Of a stretch of 28,745 nucleotides of DNA, positions 3,102-24,547 are shown in pieces. The translations under genes were made by a program, and so were the position numbers. This DNA is from a virus. The stretch spans positions 1 through 28,745 of the IMG/VR virus record IMGVR_UViG_3300032284_000337. The stretch is one strand, 5' to 3'. Below the pieces are notes generated by a model that did not search any database, was not told where the DNA came from, and saw only the letters and a list, made by a program, of their open reading frames with translations. The first letter of the stretch is position 1. The number at the start of each line of letters is the position of its first letter.

Positions 3102-3782
3102 ATGAGTCAAATTATTGGTATTGTGGGTTTTATTGGCAGTGGTAAGGACACTATTGCCGACTACTTAGTCAACATACACGGTTTTCGAAGAGAAAGTTTT
3201 GCTAACAGCTTAAAAGATGCCGTAAGTGCTGTGTTTGGTTGGGACAGGATTATGTTAGAGGGTAGAACTAATCAAAGCAGAGAATGGCGTGAAACTGTTG
3301 ATGAGTTTTGGGCTAAACGCTTAAAAATGCCTAAATTAACACCTAGATGGGTCCTACAGTACTGGGGTACCGAGGTATGTCGTAGCAACTTTCACAATGA
3401 TATATGGGTTGCTAGTTTAGAAAATAGACTGTTAAAAAGCACAGATGATGTTGTAATTACAGATTGTAGGTTTCCCAATGAAGTTTCTGCCATACGCAAG
3501 GTAGGTGGCAAAGTAATTAGAGTTAAGCGAGGCCCAGAGCCAGACTGGTATGCTGATGCCCTAACTGTTGCTAAAGGTGAGAAACATTTTGGTTATAAAC
3601 CTGCTCATGCTAGATTACTGCGTAAAAAGGTACACGCAAGTGAATACAGTTGGGTAGGCAGCAAGTTTGATTATGTTATTCCCAATGACGGTACACTAGA
3701 TGAACTATACCAACACTTTGAACAACAGGTTCTTAAAAGTCAGGCACAAGATCGCCCTGACGCCAACCCAATCCCTCATTAG
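3102..3782 (+). CDS. 1: deoxynucleoside monophosphate kinase (T4 gp1-like)
   Basis: A P-loop kinase that transfers phosphate from ATP to deoxynucleoside monophosphates to supply phage DNA synthesis. It has 226 residues against about 241 in T4 gp1. The Walker A motif GFIGSGKDT lies at residues 9-17, and DCRFPNEVSAIRKVGG (mid-protein) is a second family signature. The start is set at 3102 because AAGGAG lies 7 bases upstream; an in-frame ATG at 3087 would lie before this ribosome site and add five unlikely residues. The last 50 bp overlap the tail end of an HNH gene on the other strand. Finding this metabolic gene between gp13 and the sheath gene is unlike T4. Confidence 0.85.
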   Translation: MSQIIGIVGFIGSGKDTIADYLVNIHGFRRESFANSLKDAVSAVFGWDRIMLEGRTNQSREWRETVDEFWAKRLKMPKLTPRWVLQYWGTEVCRSNFHNDIWVASLENRLLKSTDDVVITDCRFPNEVSAIRKVGGKVIRVKRGPEPDWYADALTVAKGEKHFGYKPAHARLLRKKVHASEYSWVGSKFDYVIPNDGTLDELYQHFEQQVLKSQAQDRPDANPIPH

Positions 3783-4083
3783 CTATCTCAATCTGACAGT
3801 TAGTGCAGACGGTTTTAAGGTTAGACCAACTAGCATTAGATAGATTGCCATCTACGTGATATACATTTAACTGCTCTTTATACTTGGCCTTAAAGCCACA
3901 TTTTTCACAGTTAGGTTTACGTTTATATCCGGATTTATACCAGGTTGGTATAGGTGGTTTTATGCCTCTTTTTTTGCGTTTACAACTGTCACAGTGGGTT
4001 CTAAAATAGACTTTGCCATGTCTATAATAATTAATGGCTGCTACTTTTTTCCTGCATAATTGACACAAAGGACGCTGTTTCAT
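3733..4083 (-). CDS. HNH-family zinc-finger endonuclease
   Basis: A 116-residue protein with four Cys pairs (C7/C10, C31/C34, C59/C62, C93/C96) and an HNH-like core: YHVDGNLSNASWSNLK, with H76, N80 and N88, followed by C93-x2-C96. HNH proteins cut DNA with a metal ion. Small free-standing ones in T4-like phages are often homing enzymes, but some assist DNA packaging. It is the only complete minus-strand gene and overlaps the 3' end of the dNMP kinase gene by 50 bp tail to tail. A CTAAATA late promoter directly abuts its start. Insertion between two conserved gene blocks fits a mobile gene. Activity is inferred from the motif only. Confidence 0.75.
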   Translation of the reverse strand: MKQRPLCQLCRKKVAAINYYRHGKVYFRTHCDSCKRKKRGIKPPIPTWYKSGYKRKPNCEKCGFKAKYKEQLNVYHVDGNLSNASWSNLKTVCTNCQIEIANEGLGWRQGDLVPDF

Positions 4084-8252: not shown

Positions 8253-8264
8253 TTGACATAAATA
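8253..8264 (+). promoter_or_regulatory. TTGACATAAATA: late promoter fused to a -35-like box
   Basis: CATAAATA (8257-8264) is the late core, and TTGACA (8253-8258) overlaps it. The last A of the late motif is six bases before the ATG at 8270, which places the predicted late transcription start on the ATG itself. Confidence 0.6.
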
Positions 8265-10964: not shown

Positions 10965-11585
10965 ATGAAGAATTTTATTGAACATTTATCAGAAGCACAA
11001 AAGACATATGACTTCCGTATTAAAGTAGCTAACTTTGATCCAAAAGATTCAATGGATCGTTTAGAAAATGCTTTAAATGCATATGGCTTAGAAAGCATTA
11101 CTAAACCCAAAACTTTGCCTATACAAGAAAACGCAATAGATTTTCCTAGTATGGGACCAACAGAAATCTATGTAATAGATGCAGTGCTAAAATATCCAGT
11201 AAATGATCAACAGCTTGGTGCTATTATTGCAGAACGTGCTGGCTTTCCACTTAATAGCGTAAGAGTAATTCCCCGTAATCATCCAGAAGAACTTTGGAGA
11301 AACAACGAAGGCGAACTACGTGAATTTGTACAAGGCGAAGCAGTTCTAGATAAACCGTATGAAGACAGTGCAGAGGGAAAAGCCTTAGGCAAAATGTACG
11401 CTGAAAAAGGTGTACTATTAAAAGAATTAAGCAAAGTGCAGTGGGAAATTGCAGGCAAGGACAACACTATTGGTGGTGGATCTAATGCATCAACAGGCAA
11501 AACATTAAATGATATTCCACAAGGCATAACAGATCCAGTCGGATCAAATCAAAACAAAATACCAAGTCCAGTTAAAGGAAACTAG
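10965..11585 (+). CDS. putative internal head protein with capsid-targeting leader (206 aa)
   Basis: The first 11 residues, MKNFIEHLSEA, align without gaps to the T4 internal protein leader MKTYQEFIAEA, which targets proteins into the prohead core and is cut after the Glu by gp21. Here LSE|A provides the L-x-E site after residue 10. The rest has a compact domain: YDFRIKVANFDPKDSMDRLE (about 15-34), then TEIYVIDAVLKYPVN and ERAGFPLNSVRVIPRN, and a Gly/Asn/Pro-rich C-terminal tail. I recall similar virion proteins in marine myoviruses, but the function is unknown. It starts a block of co-directional genes spaced by 0-4 bp. Confidence 0.6.
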   Translation: MKNFIEHLSEAQKTYDFRIKVANFDPKDSMDRLENALNAYGLESITKPKTLPIQENAIDFPSMGPTEIYVIDAVLKYPVNDQQLGAIIAERAGFPLNSVRVIPRNHPEELWRNNEGELREFVQGEAVLDKPYEDSAEGKALGKMYAEKGVLLKELSKVQWEIAGKDNTIGGGSNASTGKTLNDIPQGITDPVGSNQNKIPSPVKGN

Positions 11586-13938: not shown

Positions 13939-14748
13939 ATGAAAACACTTAAAGACTATTTTTCAGAAGCAGAATTTGCTGCTAACCACCCGGTTGCCGG
14001 CGATGTATTAGACATTATAATCAATGAAGAATTGGTTATTGAATGTGCAGTTACAGAGCTAGGTCACAAAGGTATAATGTTAAGTCTAGATGAAACTGCT
14101 GTTAGTATACTAGAACAAGTTGAGTTATATGAAAATTTTGCTCCAATGGCACCTGCAGATTCTGATAGTCCATTAACACACACAACTCACGACGAGAAAC
14201 TAGAGGAAGGTCGTGAAGAAGTTGACAAATGGGCACAAAAAATGTTTGATGAGATTGAAGAACGTCATGGTTGGGCAGTAGCAGAACAGTTTGAAGATAT
14301 CTACTATGCGAAAGATGTAGAACAGATTGAAGATGCACATCTAAATGTCAACGCATTAAATCTAATATTAAAAACACTTAAATCAGTTGGTCCAAGAGAT
14401 GACTATGCTGAAGATTGGCAAAGACTTGTGGGATTAATTGAAGAATACCTAGGACCTAAAGATGTTGACGAAGCAAAATACCATGGTAAAGAAGTTAAAC
14501 TTGGCAAACCAATGCAAGGCGACGTTAAAAAATTTAAAGTATATGTAAAAGATCCTAAAACAGGCAAAGTTAAAAAAGTAAACTTTGGCAAAGTTGGCAT
14601 GGAAATTAAAAGAGACAATCCAACTAGACGCAAAAGTTATCGTGCAAGACACAACTGTGCCAATCCAGGTCCAAGAACAAAAGCCAACTACTGGTCATGC
14701 AGAATGTGGTCTAAAAAACCAGTTAGCAAAATTATCAAAGGCAAATAA
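13939..14748 (+). CDS. putative internal head protein with capsid-targeting leader and basic C-terminal domain (269 aa)
   Basis: The leader MKTLKDYFSEA has the same length and layout as the T4 capsid-targeting sequence MKTYQEFIAEA, with Phe in place of Leu/Ile before S-E|A. An LEE-G site near residue 90 could be a second cut. The middle (about 92-178) is acidic and helical. The C-terminal 90 residues are strongly basic: VKVNFGKVGMEIKRDN-like text, then RRKSYRARHNCANPGPR and YWSCRMWSKKPVSK. I recall this Arg/Cys/Trp domain from many tailed-phage structural and core proteins. It could bind DNA inside the head. The gene starts 1 bp after the previous stop and ends directly against the next start. 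Confidence 0.6.
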   Translation: MKTLKDYFSEAEFAANHPVAGDVLDIIINEELVIECAVTELGHKGIMLSLDETAVSILEQVELYENFAPMAPADSDSPLTHTTHDEKLEEGREEVDKWAQKMFDEIEERHGWAVAEQFEDIYYAKDVEQIEDAHLNVNALNLILKTLKSVGPRDDYAEDWQRLVGLIEEYLGPKDVDEAKYHGKEVKLGKPMQGDVKKFKVYVKDPKTGKVKKVNFGKVGMEIKRDNPTRRKSYRARHNCANPGPRTKANYWSCRMWSKKPVSKIIKGK

Positions 14749-15159
14749 ATGAAAATCCGAGAAATTATTGTAGAGGCTAAAGTTAAAACTATAGATAGAG
14801 ACAGCGATGGTCTACCTGACTCACATGTTACAGCTACTCCTGGCATGAAAACACATCCGCAGTTAGATAACAGTAGTCCTTATGCACCTTGGCGTTTTGC
14901 AGCACACTACCTACCAGGTGCAGGTAATAAAGATGGATCTTGGGATCATGAACCTAAAAAAGACGGCCCAATAGGCCAAAAACTAGTTACTGTTGCGTAC
15001 AGTGAAGCAGATGAACATATTATTAATATGGCTGAAAAGAAATTTGGTGCTAAATCAACTAGAATTACACCTAACGGCAGCAGTGAAGAAACAGATGTTA
15101 CTAACACAAGTCCAGTACCTCACAATGCTGGTGCAAAGCGCAATAAGCCCAAAAACTAA
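14749..15159 (+). CDS. putative internal head protein with capsid-targeting leader (136 aa)
   Basis: The N-terminus MKIREIIVEA resembles the T4 capsid-targeting peptide and ends in IVE|A, a match to the (L/I)-x-E rule for gp21 cleavage. The body contains DSDGLPDSHVTATPGMKTHP (about 20-39), LDNSSPYAPWRFAAHYLPGAG and a segment GPIGQKLVTVAYSEADEHII, text I recall from conserved unknown proteins of tailed phages. Ser/Thr/Asn/Lys-rich C-terminus. The ATG follows the previous TAA without a gap, so translation is probably coupled. A second long frame overlaps its 3' half but has no ribosome site and no family resemblance. Function unknown. Confidence 0.6.
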   Translation: MKIREIIVEAKVKTIDRDSDGLPDSHVTATPGMKTHPQLDNSSPYAPWRFAAHYLPGAGNKDGSWDHEPKKDGPIGQKLVTVAYSEADEHIINMAEKKFGAKSTRITPNGSSEETDVTNTSPVPHNAGAKRNKPKN

Positions 15160-17003: not shown

Positions 17004-17011
17004 CATAAATA
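17004..17011 (+). promoter_or_regulatory. late promoter CATAAATA abutting the start codon
   Basis: CATAAATA begins 2 bases after the gp17 stop codon. Its last A is six bases before the ATG at 17017, so the predicted late transcript starts on the ATG. Confidence 0.65.
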
Positions 17012-17016
17012 TCTAT

Positions 17017-18915
17017 ATGAGAGAAATCAACAAAATATCCGAAGCATTATTTGAAAAAATCCGCAGTAGATTTGAGGACGTAAGCCTAGGCAACGATAAA
17101 GCACAGGCTACTAGCGATCCTGAACAGGCGAGATTCTTTAATTTTGACTTTACAGTAGGCGACGAAAACTGTGGCAATGTAACATTAAGCCTAGCGGATG
17201 AGCTTACTCTTAAAATATATTACAGCAAAAACATGAGCCAAGACCTTAGCCAAGAATCTAAAGAGGCATGGGAGGGATTCTTGAGAGAATTAAGACATTT
17301 TAGTAAACGTAATCTATTGGGTTTTGAACCAAGAGATATCACTAGAAGTCTTAAACTAAAAGACTTAAAACAAGCTAGTCACAACGACAATACCTATTCA
17401 AAAGACGACATTGCACTAGGCGAAAGCAGAATGTATGGTACAAGCAAAAGCAGCTATCAAAAATTTGGTCCAGTTAAAATTATAGTAAGACATAGTAAAC
17501 CAGTAACAGACGAACAACGTGGCAGCAGAGCAAGAAACATAAACAGTATTTTTGTAGAAAACGATCAAGGTGAAAGATTTAGAATGCCTTTCCGTAGACT
17601 CAGTGATGCTAGAGCTATGGCAAGACATATTAGTGCAGGTGGTACAGTAAACGATGATCTAGGTAAACATATATGTGAAATGGCAGAGGAATGCAACAAA
17701 CTACGTCCTTTTCTACGTAATGTAAGACATAGAACATTTGAAGACACTCAAACCCAAGACATGATAGAAGCAGCTTTCCAATATCACGGACTACTAAGAC
17801 ACACACTTAACAAGATGAAAGGCAAAAAAGGTTATATAGATTGTAAAGAACAATTTTCAGCAACCAGCACAAGTTTTATACCAGAAGACGCTAAAGAACT
17901 AGATGAGATTAAAGATAGATTTACTAAGCGTGTTATGGATGAAAAAGTAGCAGAGGCGCTACCAATCGTTCAAAAGGCATACGAGATGAAAAAAGACAAT
18001 AAATGGGCAAGTAAATTTGAAACATGGGCACAACAAGTATCTGAAGGTACTTGGGCACTGCCTGAAACAGAAGAAGATAAAAAACATCTAATAGATCTAA
18101 TGAGTGAAAAACTACCAGTAGGTGTTGATGCTCAGAATGCTACAAATGCATTATATAATATATTTGGTGATGATAGACTATTTGATGAACTAGAAGAATT
18201 AGCAAATAACGATCCTGAAGCAGATGCAAGGGAAGTTATTATGAATCACCTTATGGAAAAAAATCCAGAAATGTATCAAGCTATCCTAACTGATATAGGC
18301 GATCAAGAACCACACGAGCCTGCAGAACCAGCAAGCGAGGCTAATACTTATGGCACCACAGGCATGGATGAACCAGTTGTTGAAACACAAGAACACGATG
18401 AAGACGAAGAGGCACCAACTTTTAACAGCATTAAACGTAGAATATTACTTCAGCATTCTGATTTATTAGGTAAATATGGTCCAGAGGCAATATTACAAGC
18501 AATTAGAGATGAGGCAGAAAGAGTAGGCGAAGTTGATGAAATTGGATCAAGTGATGTTAGTGCCTGGGTAAACAATGTATGTAGAGAGTTAGAATCAGGC
18601 TCATATGATCATTTGGTTGAAGGTTGGAAATCTGTTGCCGCCGGAGCTGCATTAGCAGCAGGTATGGCAGGTAATGCATTTTTAGATCAACAGACATACA
18701 ATGCAAGTCCGCAATTAAAACAACTTGAACAATATCACACACAGGCATTACAAGCAGGCGACAAGGCTAAAGCTAAAGAATTAGAAAGACGAATAGAAGA
18801 TCATAAGACAAGGCTAAGTTTAGGTAAAGGTGACGTTTTAGATTCACACGGTGAACCTAAACAAGTTACATATGAAGGCATACAAGATATCAAACGATTA
18901 GCAGGCTTAAAATAA
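17017..18915 (+). CDS. large virion protein with capsid-targeting leader and releasable hydrophobic C-terminal peptide (632 aa)
   Basis: The leader MREINKISEA ends in ISE|A, a gp21-type site. The body contains GESRMYGTSKSSYQKFGPVK (about residues 135-154) and a basic segment with MPFRRLSDARAMARHIS (about 190-206); both match my memory of conserved virion proteins in marine myoviruses. A long acidic helical region follows (about 290-470). Near the end LVE-G precedes SVAAGAALAAGMAGNAFL (539-556), an Ala/Gly-rich hydrophobic stretch that could enter a membrane, then a charged helix and the terminal IQDIKRLAGLK motif. It is followed by an intrinsic terminator. Packaging inside the head is inferred from the leader; exact function unknown. 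Confidence 0.65.
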   Translation: MREINKISEALFEKIRSRFEDVSLGNDKAQATSDPEQARFFNFDFTVGDENCGNVTLSLADELTLKIYYSKNMSQDLSQESKEAWEGFLRELRHFSKRNLLGFEPRDITRSLKLKDLKQASHNDNTYSKDDIALGESRMYGTSKSSYQKFGPVKIIVRHSKPVTDEQRGSRARNINSIFVENDQGERFRMPFRRLSDARAMARHISAGGTVNDDLGKHICEMAEECNKLRPFLRNVRHRTFEDTQTQDMIEAAFQYHGLLRHTLNKMKGKKGYIDCKEQFSATSTSFIPEDAKELDEIKDRFTKRVMDEKVAEALPIVQKAYEMKKDNKWASKFETWAQQVSEGTWALPETEEDKKHLIDLMSEKLPVGVDAQNATNALYNIFGDDRLFDELEELANNDPEADAREVIMNHLMEKNPEMYQAILTDIGDQEPHEPAEPASEANTYGTTGMDEPVVETQEHDEDEEAPTFNSIKRRILLQHSDLLGKYGPEAILQAIRDEAERVGEVDEIGSSDVSAWVNNVCRELESGSYDHLVEGWKSVAAGAALAAGMAGNAFLDQQTYNASPQLKQLEQYHTQALQAGDKAKAKELERRIEDHKTRLSLGKGDVLDSHGEPKQVTYEGIQDIKRLAGLK

Positions 18916-20148: not shown

Positions 20149-21231
20149 ATGGCAAAACCATTTGACATTAGTAAATTTAGAAAGAACCTAACCAAATCTA
20201 TAGACGGATTAGGTTTTGGTTTTAATGATCCAACAGATTGGATCAGCACAGGCAATTACGCACTTAACTACTTAATCAGTTCAGACTTTAACAAAGGCAT
20301 ACCATTGGGTAAAGTGACCGTGTTTGCAGGTGAATCGGGTGCAGGAAAAAGCTATATCTGTTCAGGCAATATAATTAAGAATGCACAAGAACAAGGCATC
20401 TATGTTATTTTAGTTGACAGCGAAAATGCACTTGATGAAAGTTGGTTACACGCATTAGGTGTAGACACAGATGAAAGTAAATTACTTAAACTAAGTATGG
20501 CCATGATTGATGATGTAGCAAAAACTATATCTACGTTTATGACTGATTATAAAGCATTACCAGACGGTGAACGTCCTAAAGTATTGTTTGTAATAGATAG
20601 TTTAGGCATGTTACTAACACCAACAGACATAAACCAGTTTGATGCAGGTGATTTAAAAGGTGATATGGGTCGTAAACCCAAAGCACTAACCGCACTGGTG
20701 CGTAACTGTGTAAACATGTTTGGTAATTTTAATGTAGGTTTAGTCTGTACTAATCATACATACGCAAGCCAAGACATGTTTGATCCCGATGATAAGATTT
20801 CGGGTGGTCAGGGTTTTATCTATGCATCAAGTATAGTTGTAGCGATGCGTAAATTAAAACTTAAAGAAGATGAAGATGGTAACAAGATATCTGAAGTACG
20901 TGGTATTCGTTCCGCTTGTAAAGTAATGAAGACTAGATATTGTAAACCATTTGAAAGTGTACAGGTTAAGATTCCATATGAAACAGGCATGAATCCTTAT
21001 AGTGGATTAGTTGACTTAGCTGAAGGCAAAGGGTTACTCGCTAAGGATGGAAACAGGCTTGCATACAAAGCATTAGATGGCACAGAATTTAAACTATTCC
21101 GTAAAGCATGGGAAAGTAATGAAGACGGTTGCTTAGATGCTGTAATGAAAGATTTACAAAAGAACCCAAATCTGCTAAGTACTCAAGAAGAGGCAACGGA
21201 TGTTGCTGTCATTGAGGAGATAGCAGAATGA
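20149..21231 (+). CDS. uvsX: UvsX, RecA-like recombinase
   Basis: Forms filaments on single-stranded DNA and promotes strand exchange, which drives recombination-dependent replication. It has 360 residues against about 391 in T4. Walker A is GESGAGKS at 61-68 (K67). It continues with VILVDSENALDESWL, a Walker B-like VLFVIDSLGML, and LVCTNHTYASQDMFDPDDKISGG-type text around residues 200-220 typical of UvsX. The C-terminus is acidic, as in RecA-family proteins. Ribosome site AGAGGATA. It lies between gp32 and uvsY, its two functional partners. Its stop overlaps the next start (ATGA). Confidence 0.93.
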   Translation: MAKPFDISKFRKNLTKSIDGLGFGFNDPTDWISTGNYALNYLISSDFNKGIPLGKVTVFAGESGAGKSYICSGNIIKNAQEQGIYVILVDSENALDESWLHALGVDTDESKLLKLSMAMIDDVAKTISTFMTDYKALPDGERPKVLFVIDSLGMLLTPTDINQFDAGDLKGDMGRKPKALTALVRNCVNMFGNFNVGLVCTNHTYASQDMFDPDDKISGGQGFIYASSIVVAMRKLKLKEDEDGNKISEVRGIRSACKVMKTRYCKPFESVQVKIPYETGMNPYSGLVDLAEGKGLLAKDGNRLAYKALDGTEFKLFRKAWESNEDGCLDAVMKDLQKNPNLLSTQEEATDVAVIEEIAE

Positions 21232-21470
21232 GTGTTGAAGTAGATGTATTAAGCGAAATGTGGTTAACAGTTAAAGAGTATATTGCCGCTAAGGACAGAC
21301 AGGCAGTAGCTGATCATATTGTTAACGTAGTTGCAGATCACAGTATTACAGAGAGAGATCTTAAAGCATTTGGAGGCGCCGATAGTTACATTAAACGAGC
21401 AGTCGTTGAGTATCTAGGTGAGGAAGAAAGCGAAGAGCCAACTCTAGATGATGACGGCGACGAATACTAA
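21228..21470 (+). CDS. small acidic protein between uvsX and uvsY (80 aa)
   Basis: An 80-residue protein overlapping uvsX by 4 bases and uvsY by 1 base, so all three are translationally coupled. Helical N-terminus (LSEMWLTVKEYIAAKDRQAVADHI), a small domain with ITERDLKAFGGADSYIKRAVVEYL, and a very acidic tail (EEESEEPTLDDDGDE). I recall small proteins of this type at the same position in cyanophages, with no known function. The location suggests a role with the recombination machinery. Confidence 0.65.
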   Translation: MSVEVDVLSEMWLTVKEYIAAKDRQAVADHIVNVVADHSITERDLKAFGGADSYIKRAVVEYLGEEESEEPTLDDDGDEY

Positions 21471-21925
21471 TGTGGTATAACAAAGTAGTTCAAGACATTG
21501 CTGTATTGCCAGATTTTATAGACTACTATAATTCTGAGTTAGACACAGCTAAACGTGAGATCGGTATCTATGGTAACATAGAAAAGGGTCTTGCCAGTCT
21601 ACCAGGTATAACAGAACACCGTTTTAATCAATTACAAGAGATTGAAGCGGTGTTAAATCTGTTAAATATCCGTTTGCGTAAAATACGTAGAGGTCACTTT
21701 CAAAAATATCTAGAAAGTTATGCGAGAGCGTTAACCGCTAGAGATGCTGAAAAATATGTAGACGGCGAAGATGAAGTTATTGATATGGAAACTATTATCA
21801 ATGAGGTTGCCTTACTAAGAAACAAGTGGTTAGGCATAATGAAAGGACTTGAAAGTAAAAACTTCATGCTAGGCCACGTAACTAGATTACGTACAGCAGG
21901 TATGGAAGATGCAACAATCAGCTAA
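21470..21925 (+). CDS. uvsY: UvsY, recombination mediator
   Basis: UvsY helps load UvsX onto DNA already covered by gp32. This protein has 151 residues against 137 in T4 and starts MWYNKVVQDIAVLPDFIDYYNSE, followed by ELDTAKREIGIYGNIEKGLASLPGI in the T4-like order. It is helical throughout, with a basic helix NIRLRKIRRGHFQKYLESYARAL (about 63-85) and AEKYVDGEDEVI. It lies directly in the uvsX unit and overlaps the next gene by 17 bp. Confidence 0.88.
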   Translation: MWYNKVVQDIAVLPDFIDYYNSELDTAKREIGIYGNIEKGLASLPGITEHRFNQLQEIEAVLNLLNIRLRKIRRGHFQKYLESYARALTARDAEKYVDGEDEVIDMETIINEVALLRNKWLGIMKGLESKNFMLGHVTRLRTAGMEDATIS

Positions 21926-22169
21926 CATCAATGACCTACTAGAACAGTGGGAGCATATTAAAACAGTAAGTTGTCCTAAGGGCGATAGTTTAGACGAAGC
22001 CATTATACACGAACACGCAAAAAATCGTGTAGATCATCTTGCTTATTCTGTAAGACGTAGTAGATTAGAAAATGATCAATACAATGAACAACGCTACACT
22101 GACTTATTTGCACAGTCGTACAATGAATTTACTAGTAATTTTGTATATAGAGTATTAAAAAATGGATGA
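21909..22169 (+). CDS. small conserved protein downstream of uvsY (86 aa)
   Basis: An 86-residue helical, His/Arg-rich protein that begins within uvsY and ends within the methyltransferase gene (8-bp overlap). Blocks: NINDLLEQWEHIKT, DEAIIHEHAKNRVDHLAYSV, and a final YTDLFAQSYNEFTSNFVYRVL. I do not recognise a family, although T4 also has small genes beside uvsY. The overlapping layout and coding-like composition support it as a real gene. Confidence 0.6.
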   Translation: MQQSANINDLLEQWEHIKTVSCPKGDSLDEAIIHEHAKNRVDHLAYSVRRSRLENDQYNEQRYTDLFAQSYNEFTSNFVYRVLKNG

Positions 22170-23079
22170 AAGACACAGTTATAAAACGCTGGTACAGCTC
22201 AGTATATATACAGAATTTTTAGAAAGTATAGCTGCAGTTGCAGATATAGGATGTGGTAATGGCAAGGACATAGAATTCTTTGCTACCTTAATACGCAAAG
22301 ACAAACCCTTTATACCATACAATTTTAAATGTTATGCTGTAGATAAAAATCCTCATGCTTTAGATATGGTACCCAATCTAAAAAACATATTTAAATTAAA
22401 CAAGGACTTTAGTGATCAGTATATATTTCCAGTAAGCATAGATCTAATGCTGGCACATGATGTATTGCAATACAGTATAAGTCCATTACAGACATTAAAA
22501 AATTGGAATGAGGCTATGACAGTTAATGGCATGCTGTTAGTAACTGTACCAACCCATGTTGGTGTAGCCAACAATAGATTCTATAGCAGAACACATGATC
22601 TAAGTTATTACAATTTTACAGTGCCAAATCTTATATACATGCTGGCAGTAAATGGCTTTGATTGTAGAGACGCATATCTCCTAAAAAAATATGGTGATCC
22701 TTGGATACAGATGGCAGTATACAAATCAGATATTCCGCCAATGGATCCCAGTACAACCACCTGGCAGGATCTAATAGACAAAAAACTCATACACTTTAGT
22801 ATAGAGCAGAGCTATAGAGACAATGGCTATGTAAGGCAGGAAGATATATGTATGCCTTGGTTAGATAGGAGTATATATTATGTGGATTATATACAGCAAT
22901 GGACTGAGATTCCAGCAGAGGCAGGCGAACCAAGGATAGAGGGGGTATTTAATACTACTCAAGAAAGCAAAGCTAATACAATAATACAGGGACCCCAGGC
23001 TATTAGATCTACTAACCTGTTTGAACCTGTAGAGCTTATGAAAACACCCAAAAAGAGATTAGTCAAAGACAAAAAGTAA
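22162..23079 (+). CDS. SAM-dependent methyltransferase-like protein (305 aa)
   Basis: Class I methyltransferase fold: motif I VADIGCGNGKD at about residues 26-36 (D28, G30, G32, G34), CYAVDKNPHALDM as the acidic strand-2 motif, and LMLAHDVLQYS in the motif IV position, followed by MLLVTVPTH. The first 190 residues make the domain; the rest (about 190-305) is an extra domain rich in Trp, Tyr and Asp with a basic end. The acceptor could be a sugar, protein or small molecule; nothing shows DNA as the target (no NPPY/DPPY motif). Similar proteins are common in cyanophages. No late promoter is seen, so it is probably read with uvsX-uvsY. Confidence 0.75.
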   Translation: MDERHSYKTLVQLSIYTEFLESIAAVADIGCGNGKDIEFFATLIRKDKPFIPYNFKCYAVDKNPHALDMVPNLKNIFKLNKDFSDQYIFPVSIDLMLAHDVLQYSISPLQTLKNWNEAMTVNGMLLVTVPTHVGVANNRFYSRTHDLSYYNFTVPNLIYMLAVNGFDCRDAYLLKKYGDPWIQMAVYKSDIPPMDPSTTTWQDLIDKKLIHFSIEQSYRDNGYVRQEDICMPWLDRSIYYVDYIQQWTEIPAEAGEPRIEGVFNTTQESKANTIIQGPQAIRSTNLFEPVELMKTPKKRLVKDKK

Positions 23080-23091
23080 TTACTAGTTTAT

Positions 23092-23099
23092 GATAAATA
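23092..23099 (+). promoter_or_regulatory. late promoter GATAAATA
   Basis: GATAAATA ends eight bases before the ATG at 23107, so the predicted late transcript would have a leader of about 2 nt. Confidence 0.6.
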
Positions 23100-23106
23100 A
23101 CATATC

Positions 23107-24249
23107 ATGCGCAAATTAATAAACTTATTATTATCAGAAGCACCAGTAGACCTTAAGAAACAGGTTATTAATCTAGTACAACAGACATCAGATCAAGACT
23201 TATTAAACAAGGTTCTAGTTGCACTTAAATCCACCGACCTTTCATCTAAACTTAAAAAAGTATTAAGCACAGACAAAGATGCCAACAAAATGGTAGATAG
23301 ATTGGCTAAACTTATTATTAATGTAGATGGCACTGTGGCTGAAAAAGAAAAATTTGCAGATGATTTTAAATCGGGATTTGTAGATTCTGGTAAGTTATTA
23401 GATGGCAAACAACATACTTTTGATGAGATAATAACCCCAGGTTTTCCACAAAGAGTATTTGCTTTGTTAGCAACAGAACTTACAAGTCAGGGTGTTGGCC
23501 CAGGTGAGGTGGCTTTAGCTGTAATGAGTCCTAATATCAGTCACAGTGGCAGGGCTAGTGGTGGCGGGGACTTACAGATAGATGGCAAAGCAGTAGAAGT
23601 AAAAACCACAGTGAGTAAAGGTGGTAGATGGTCAGATGCCCGTAAAGGTGAACTGAACATGCAGGGCATTAAGAAAGAATTAACCACAGCTCTTGAAGGT
23701 AGTGGCATAGATTTACCACCTAGATTAGGCATTGGATTTTGGCTAACACAGGTACGTCCTTGGCTACAAGAAAATGGTAAAGATATAAAAAAAATAACCC
23801 AAGTAATGGCAGATGGTTTATTCAGTAAAACCAATAACAGTCAATACCAAAAAGCATTAGCAGAGGGTGATGCACAGGCTATACTAGATGCTATCTTACA
23901 GGTTGGTTATGACAATTACAAAGCATACAGTAAATTTGATGGCATGCTAATGATAGATATAAGGGGTGGCGGCACAGCACAATATTTTGGCACATACGAA
24001 GACATGCAGGGTAAAATTAAACCTAGTACAGCATATCTATATGCACCAGAAAGTGAAGCAATGCCACAGGTAGAACTTATAGCAACAGTAGGTGGTAGAG
24101 CAAAGGCATTAACTCCAGGCAAGACGGCGGCTGATAAAGCAGAGATAGACCAAAAGATCAGCGACATAAACAAACCAACTAGGGGCATAAGACCCAAACG
24201 TGCAGAACCTGCCGCTGCCAAAACCAGTTCAGTAAGAAAGAAACGTTGA
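23107..24249 (+). CDS. putative packaged PD-(D/E)XK nuclease with capsid-targeting leader (380 aa)
   Basis: The N-terminus MRKLINLLLSEA resembles the T4 capsid-targeting peptide and ends in LSE|A, a gp21-type cleavage site. Residues 20-100 are helical. A nuclease-like motif follows: SGRASGGGDLQIDGKAVEVK, with D155, then E164-V-K166 (GD-x8-E-x-K), the core of PD-(D/E)XK enzymes. Preceding PGEVALAVMSPN may hold another acidic ligand. After 170 come GRWSDARKGELNMQ, a helical domain, and a core ending with YDNYKAYSKFDGMLMIDIRGG. The C-terminus (about 350-380) is Lys/Arg/Ala-rich and probably binds DNA. It has its own late promoter. Together these suggest a nuclease packed in the head, possibly injected. 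Activity is inferred; no homologue was searched. Confidence 0.55.
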   Translation: MRKLINLLLSEAPVDLKKQVINLVQQTSDQDLLNKVLVALKSTDLSSKLKKVLSTDKDANKMVDRLAKLIINVDGTVAEKEKFADDFKSGFVDSGKLLDGKQHTFDEIITPGFPQRVFALLATELTSQGVGPGEVALAVMSPNISHSGRASGGGDLQIDGKAVEVKTTVSKGGRWSDARKGELNMQGIKKELTTALEGSGIDLPPRLGIGFWLTQVRPWLQENGKDIKKITQVMADGLFSKTNNSQYQKALAEGDAQAILDAILQVGYDNYKAYSKFDGMLMIDIRGGGTAQYFGTYEDMQGKIKPSTAYLYAPESEAMPQVELIATVGGRAKALTPGKTAADKAEIDQKISDINKPTRGIRPKRAEPAAAKTSSVRKKR

Positions 24250-24307: not shown

Positions 24308-24547
24308 ATGAGCACAAAAACATCCGTAGAACTAGTTGATATAGACAGTTGTCTAAGAGCATTTGATGGCAACAGATTTAAGTTAATCCTAGGTGCTGCA
24401 ACACGAGCAAGAGAAATTGCAGGCACAAGGATAATGGCAGAGAAAAACAACGTTAAACAAAAACATCCTAATAAACCAATCGTAACCGCAATGATAGAAA
24501 TAGCAGATGGTAAGATTGGCAAAGAATATCTACAAAAAGTAAGATAA
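24308..24547 (+). CDS. rpoZ-like: RNA polymerase omega subunit-like protein
   Basis: Bacterial omega (RpoZ) clasps the beta-prime subunit of RNA polymerase and helps its assembly. This 79-residue protein (E. coli omega: 91) aligns along most of its length. DIDSCLRAFDGNRFKLILGAATRAREIAG corresponds to the [22 protein letters not shown] region of omega (each about residues 12-40; compare NRFKLILGAATRARE with [15 protein letters not shown]), and NKPIVTAMIEIADGKI corresponds to NDKTTVIALREIEEGLI. Phage omega-like proteins are not part of the classical T4 set. It is driven by a consensus sigma-70 promoter, so it is probably made early, and might change host polymerase for phage transcription. Identity is from recognition only. 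Confidence 0.75.
   Translation: MSTKTSVELVDIDSCLRAFDGNRFKLILGAATRAREIAGTRIMAEKNNVKQKHPNKPIVTAMIEIADGKIGKEYLQKVR

Follow-up and report, generated by a model that had tools for sequence, protein, structure and literature searches.

The 380-residue protein encoded at 23107-24249 (+) of IMGVR_UViG_3300032284_000337, a 28.7-kb record, referred to here as the window, from a large, uncultured T4-like phage, is probably one allele of a cassette locus for nucleases that travel in the phage head and, once ejected together with the genome, would act against non-self DNA. The anatomy of the gene, its conservation and the exchange of alleles at the locus could be demonstrated by comparison of sequences. 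A broader reading is put forward more tentatively, at somewhat less than an even chance: a multi-allelic locus for injected restriction-like nucleases, in which one promoter, leader and tail serve interchangeable cores of differing specificity, forming a head-borne polymorphic toxin system. The cassette consists of a late-type promoter at the start codon, a leader of 9-16 residues ending [LIV]-x-E, a nuclease-like core and, after a disordered linker, a basic C-terminal peptide. In the window these and the signature residues of the core are arranged as follows, with the basis for each given in brackets:

23107-24249 (+): open reading frame with ATG start, 380 aa, candidate head-targeted PD-(D/E)XK nuclease (reading frame, conservation, model)
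23092-23099 (+): late-promoter-like element GATAAATA, of the NATAAATA type, 7 nt before the ATG (motif position, homologue clusters)
23107-23139 (+): capsid-targeting-like leader MRKLINLLLSE, codons 1-11, with a predicted prohead-protease cut at E11/A12 (leader conservation, unrelated cores)
23290-24096 (+): modelled core, residues 62-330, pLDDT 92.8, pTM 0.87 (structure prediction)
23506-23508 (+): codon of E134, the invariant Glu of the helix preceding the strands, GVGPGE (alignments)
23569-23571 (+): codon of D155, GGGDL (alignments)
23596-23604 (+): codons of E164-V165-K166, E-x-K (alignments)
24067-24246 (+): disordered basic tail, residues 321-380, net charge +9, ending VRKKR (low pLDDT, charge, sharing)

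The large terminase of the window matches those of T4-type large phages at up to about 53%, the best being PA5oct and Atu_ph07, and relatives of UvsX and UvsY lie directly upstream of the gene. The elements on which a preliminary description had based a head-carried nuclease are present in the reading frame, namely the N-terminus MRKLINLLLSEAPVD, which ends in L-S-E (residues 9-11, a leader closing in L/I-x-E) followed by A, the motif D155-LQIDGKAV-E164-V-K166 exactly as given, and a basic tail of 60 residues after residue 320. A DNA pattern for GGDxxxDG has a single match in the window and none in 100 shuffles. Directly downstream of the gene, 24308-24547 (+) encodes an RNA polymerase omega/Rpb6-type subunit (PF01192, E 1.2e-10, above the cut-off), and a similar small reading frame also follows the nuclease gene at the locus L001. 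Elsewhere in the window, 3733-4083 (-) is a zinc-ribbon/HNH-like reading frame whose Pfam matches are all sub-threshold.

The core resembles restriction endonucleases

Homologues were collected by pattern scans of IMG/VR, which gave 67 loci in the broadest run, 32-57% identical, and these fell into 22 clusters at 70% identity; the clusters are kin by descent and counts over them are not independent trials. Across a 39-row alignment of homologues reaching down to 32% identity, residues E134, D155, E164 and K166 are invariant, as are R174, R179 and K180. The first four are also retained in a divergent subfamily (P0007, L335) at about 23-25% identity, and an E-D-E-K set that stays invariant at about 25% identity is what a metal-dependent active site should show. 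Conservation of D155, E164 and K166 had been proposed earlier as a check on the nuclease reading, which it bears out.

The model of the core was built from the same alignment and shows a helix-strand-strand-strand order around the signature residues. Comparison with solved structures (VIA-align, 999 chains re-aligned) gave 11 rows with Z of at least 2. The best seven of the 11 were all restriction endonucleases (HinP1I twice, MspI, the N-domain of Eco15I, NaeI twice and MvaI), with Z from 4.1 to 2.8, 104-160 residues aligned and rmsd of 4.3-6.1, against Z of 2.0-2.1 for unrelated rows, on a scale where values below 8 can reflect merely a common arrangement. The order of helix and strands fits the PD-(D/E)XK fold proposed in the preliminary description, and so does the likeness to restriction enzymes, at scores that are weak. 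An earlier full-length model matched the same kinds of restriction enzymes; its best rows, designed helical proteins, were rejected as they covered residues 1-49 only, and its N-terminal region and tail were poorly modelled. Foldseek of the core against solved structures returned nothing significant (best E 0.22), a structure search of BFVD gave significant matches solely to unnamed proteins of uncultured phages, and DUF4420, a putative PD-(D/E)XK family, was a sub-threshold Pfam match in five of 24 members. As no row above background falls outside this one superfamily, and as the signature residues do not vary, the core of the window protein is likely, though not proven, to be a PD-(D/E)XK nuclease.

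By sequence, nothing informative was found for the window protein in Pfam (best E 0.13), PHROGs, PADLOC or the PDB, nor in the PDB when searched with alignment profiles. Searches by tblastn with core-family members against 50,697 phage records gave nothing informative, in one case only noise, the family was not found in bacterial and archaeal genome contigs, and at the sensitivities used no relative of the window core was recognised in a cultured phage or prophage.

A probable capsid-targeting leader

Among the 22 clusters, 17 carry [LI]xE within the first 16 residues, whereas shuffles gave a mean of 8.4 and none of 2000 reached 17; the background of the same motif is 10.6% of internal windows. 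With the relaxed motif [LIVM]xE the count rises to 20 of 22. In T4 IPIII, targeting is ascribed mainly to residues 4 and 7 and processing to residues 8 and 10 (PMC9026906). The 10-residue leader of relatives, MRKFIDLILEA, is hydrophobic at positions 4, 7 and 8 and has E at position 10; that of the window protein is one residue longer than in its nearest homologues, and in many relatives D replaces A after the cleavage glutamate. A gp21-type protease was found in the records of five of six large relatives. In one of 329 kb the gp23-like protein has L/I-x-E sites near its N-terminus, and leader-like starts occur in 12 of 408 reading frames vs five of 1520 internal methionines (Fisher p 1.5e-5).

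Cores unrelated in sequence are preceded by this leader and promoter, as described below, which lends strong independent support to the capsid-targeting reading made in the preliminary description. That the leader is a mere first helix of the fold was rejected, since it is common to unrelated cores. Head targeting of the window nuclease is considered likely from these comparisons.

Leader-like starts are also present on four further proteins of the window, which are candidate head-packed proteins: MKNFIEHLSEA at 10965-11585, MKTLKDYFSEA at 13939-14748, MKIREIIVEA at 14749-15159 and MREINKISEA at 17017-18915, all on the + strand. The last of these, of 632 aa, ends IKRLAGLK. The gp22-like scaffold of the 329-kb relative (G001 321119-322216) ends VVEIKRLAGLK, and other proteins end MRKLAGLK or MRRIAGI; this type of shared ending is possibly a second, C-terminal head-core signal. 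The 329-kb relative further encodes a 454-aa protein (L141:11495-12859; G001 206495-207859) with the leader MRIIDLLTEA, then a VYHYTNLDAAAKIL segment and a ParB-like end. The segment recalls ADP-ribosyltransferases, with nothing significant in Pfam, and the protein is a possible Alt analogue. In the very large phage contig IMGVR_UViG_3300049988_000286 (499,572 b), three different proteins (L372, L356 and L396) carry the same promoter and an MRNFI[DN] leader.

A late-promoter-like motif travels with the gene

For cyanophage S-PM2, NATAAATA has been published as the late promoter (PMC2984593). The 7-mer ATAAATA is present in 10 copies on the + strand of the window and none on the - strand, and lies no more than 50 nt upstream of nine of the 31 window genes, vs 0.49 expected at random positions. 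In 21 of the 22 homologue clusters TAAATA ends 4-21 nt 5' of the ATG, where the background is 0.9% per 25-nt window. Unlike ATAAATA, the T4 consensus TATAAATA, searched for with up to one mismatch, does not exceed its chance frequency in the window, and it was discarded as promoter evidence. The private late promoter described earlier is consequently upheld as late, of the NATAAATA type, with the exact T4 form TATAAATA given up, and the word private proved apt, as the motif accompanies the gene at two genomic locations among the 22 clusters.

The late-promoter-like motif suggests that the gene is expressed late. Given the position at which transcription starts at T4 late promoters, a motif that in many cases lies only 4-8 nt from the ATG would yield a nearly leaderless message. 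In the window, copies at 23092-23099, 8257-8264 and 17004-17011 (+) end 5-7 nt ahead of the start codons of some late genes, whose messages may accordingly be leaderless.

Fixed ends and exchanged cores

The alleles L337 and L001 share 82% DNA identity over 2.5 kb upstream, and this identity ends at codon 8. Their cores have no DNA match and only 24% protein identity, and from the last five codons onward the DNA is again 83% identical. A scan for the promoter followed by the pattern MR[KN][LF]I[ND] yielded 67 loci, of which 37 belong to the window nuclease family including divergent subtypes. Most of the remaining 30 fall into core groups 2, 3, 4 and 6, which are unrelated in sequence, and a few are singletons or short fragments. 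All 24 proteins of these four groups have [LIV]xE in the leader, and the complete ones end in a basic peptide. Flanking DNA is 63-91% similar between different core types; in many pairs the similarity enters the gene by 9-36 nt (3-12 codons), then stops, and it can resume in the last codons. When profiles were aligned with hhalign, the leader alone aligned between the window family and cores 3 and 4, and likewise between core 2 and cores 3 and 4; a 19-column stretch between the window family and core 2 was taken as spurious. A tail of 31 aa is 67-87% identical among a core-2 protein, a core-4 protein and members of the window family.

The scan selected for the leader, and its presence in those 67 matches is in itself no evidence. 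The case for a cassette is made by features that the search pattern did not contain: the common locus, the tails and the conservation of [LIV]xE. From these comparisons of genomes that are fragments from uncultured viruses, promoter, leader and basic tail form a predicted delivery cassette at one locus beside UvsX and UvsY, which is a new point, and its middle is replaced by at least four cores unrelated in sequence. The single head-carried nuclease of the preliminary description is retained in that nuclease activity and head targeting are both likely, and revised in that the gene is not single and instead represents one allele of a swappable cassette.

Cores 2 and 6 match PHROG 3560 and PHROG 12709, respectively, neither of which has a known function. 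In core 2, E111, D246, S260 and K262 are invariant, including in homologues from cyanophages and a Desulfovibrio phage; core 3 contains D-VVVGANKY-SVK with an upstream GE, and core 6 contains KADVVL...ISIK. Cores 2, 3, 4 and 6 may be [S]xK variants of the PD-(D/E)XK superfamily, a nuclease reading drawn solely from E...D...[S]xK-like invariants and two methylase-adjacent relatives. One of the latter is the core-2 homologue of Synechococcus phage ACG-2014f, which adjoins a Dam methylase gene, and the other a weak core-3 match in Atu_ph07 that overlaps an adenine-methyltransferase gene. Both gene pairs resemble restriction-modification pairs and support the nuclease reading.

Distribution and neighbours of the gene

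In most alleles UvsX and UvsY immediately precede the gene, and the divergent subfamily (P0007, L335 and L337, about 23-25% identity) occupies the same locus. In a second group the gene sits between genes read from their sequences as clpX/clpS and clpP. A basic tail of the same kind is present in 20 of the 22 clusters. One cluster, L233 (three contigs), has neither leader, promoter motif nor basic tail and is the sole promoterless cluster of the 22; because all three are lost jointly, they behave as a unit there, and the cluster shows at the sequence level that the core can exist apart from its presumed delivery parts. In the divergent pair L246 and L247 the leader is present and the tail absent, and L247 has the promoter motif.

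Of the 39 nearest UvsX relatives whose records extend 3.5 kb or more downstream, only one has the window core, and six of seven longer records are without it anywhere in the record. A late-promoter-plus-leader protein of any kind was detected by regex search in only four of 80 such UvsX loci, in records that are mostly fragments chosen by UvsX similarity, so that these are not unbiased frequencies. This rarity among UvsX relatives makes a core replication or packaging role unlikely, and by its distribution the gene is an accessory gene.

The genes downstream vary among the 22 clusters, with no conserved small reading frame, no conserved neighbour able to serve as an inhibitor and, among neighbours annotated only in part, no conserved adjacent DNA methyltransferase recognised. 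A toxin paired with a neighbouring immunity gene was rejected because no neighbour is conserved. A cognate methyltransferase elsewhere in the genome was likewise rejected, as the candidate DNA methylase of the 329-kb relative is present in three of 14 records independently of core type. In the same relative, the gene for the terminase large subunit (L132; G001 20484-23506) is apparently split by an intein- or homing-endonuclease-like insert.

Proposed mechanism and alternatives

In the proposed mechanism the nuclease would be made late and docked by its leader in the prohead core, in the manner of T4 capsid-targeting sequences, where a gp21-type protease of the phage would cut after the leader glutamate. 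It would then be packed with the genome, the basic tail helping, and be ejected at infection, with resident plasmids, prophages, co-infecting phages or the host chromosome as its non-self targets. The DNA of the phage itself could be spared through the choice of recognition site, through modification or by an enzyme that is inactive in the head. In T4, staphylococcal nuclease packed into the head destroys the phage DNA once calcium is added (PMC9026906). A natural packed nuclease would for this reason depend on metal control, on avoidance of its sites or on modified DNA. As in polymorphic toxins, specificity would differ between relatives through the exchange of cores.

A head-packaged nuclease could instead act on the DNA of the phage itself, with UvsX and UvsY as partners, in recombination, in trimming of branches or ends during packaging, or in processing after entry. 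The position of most alleles would suit such a role, as would the affinity for DNA expected of a basic tail and the finding that endonuclease VII was not found in five of six large records. It is nevertheless unlikely, because the gene is accessory by each of the three counts given above, its second location lies among clp genes, and a needed step on self DNA should not tolerate replacement of the whole core by unrelated ones. That same exchange at one locus, together with the presence-absence pattern and crossovers in the gene ends, is what might be expected of a free-standing homing-type endonuclease that cuts sister phages lacking the core and so spreads its own allele, the leader being incidental or serving delivery into co-infected cells. 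A homing gene would need neither leader nor tail, yet both are kept and the promoter stays with the gene at two loci, and one core is replaced by another where an empty site should be filled; this account is accordingly judged improbable.

There is also little probability, slightly below that of homing, that the enzyme works late in the cytoplasm of the producing cell on host or superinfecting DNA, with the leader merely parking it in proheads and so sparing phage genomes. The late promoter accords with this, and L233 indicates that the core can work without head targeting; but leader and tail are precisely what unrelated cores retain, and a parked enzyme would be ejected with the DNA anyway. 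Least probable of all, and very much so, is that the protein is no nuclease and instead an internal head protein, structural or DNA-binding, whose restriction-enzyme-like fold has degenerated. The low Z values and the lack of a significant Foldseek match would permit it, and the internal proteins of T4 are basic and in part have no known enzyme activity (PMC9026906), whereas a full E-D-E-K set invariant at about 25% identity is hard to explain without metal-dependent catalysis.

If the reading of a head-borne nuclease cassette is true, virions are armed with a lineage-specific enzyme that cuts the DNA of hosts, plasmids or rival phages, and cores that differ in specificity could decide competition between phages and between phage and plasmid. 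It raises the question of how a nuclease packed against the phage genome spares that genome. T4 has been engineered to pack head nucleases, and the cassette would be a natural case with built-in exchange of cargo. The combination of late promoter, MR-x-L-I leader and basic end would also provide a simple sequence handle for phage-injected proteins, which are otherwise hard to predict.

Comparison with known systems

The inner-body and ejection proteins of phiKZ and SPN3US likewise belong to large phages that pack and eject processed proteins (PMC9026906, PMC13282480). These phages are of a lineage different from the T4-type lineage of the window, the cleavage motif in phiKZ is S/A-x-E, and the portions of the two accounts consulted mention no exchanged nuclease cargo. 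Type II restriction endonucleases such as HinP1I, MspI, MvaI and NaeI are the best structural resemblances of the modelled core (Z 2.8-4.1) and have a metal-binding active site of the same superfamily type. They differ in that there is no significant sequence match, that the window protein adds a head-targeting leader and a basic tail, and that no cognate methyltransferase was recognised beside the window gene.

The MuF polymorphic toxins of temperate phages also join a conserved delivery part to varying toxin domains, the majority of which are nucleases, and phage delivery has been proposed for them (PMC5576092). No MuF domain was found in Pfam scans of 24 window-family members and of the other cores. 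A small downstream reading frame accompanies 89% of MuF toxin genes (PMC5576092), whereas the window cassette has no conserved one; its conserved part is a short leader and tail, and its phages are T4-like with large genomes. Closest in delivery are the T4 internal proteins IPI-III and Alt, with which the window protein shares a short hydrophobic N-terminal leader ending L/I-x-E and a late-type promoter, and relatives of its phage have a gp21-type protease and gp23. In the T4 literature consulted, head nucleases appear only as engineered fusions (staphylococcal nuclease, EcoRI) and not as natural cargo. The window cassette differs from the T4 proteins in that its cargo is a predicted nuclease and in that the core is exchanged while leader and tail stay.
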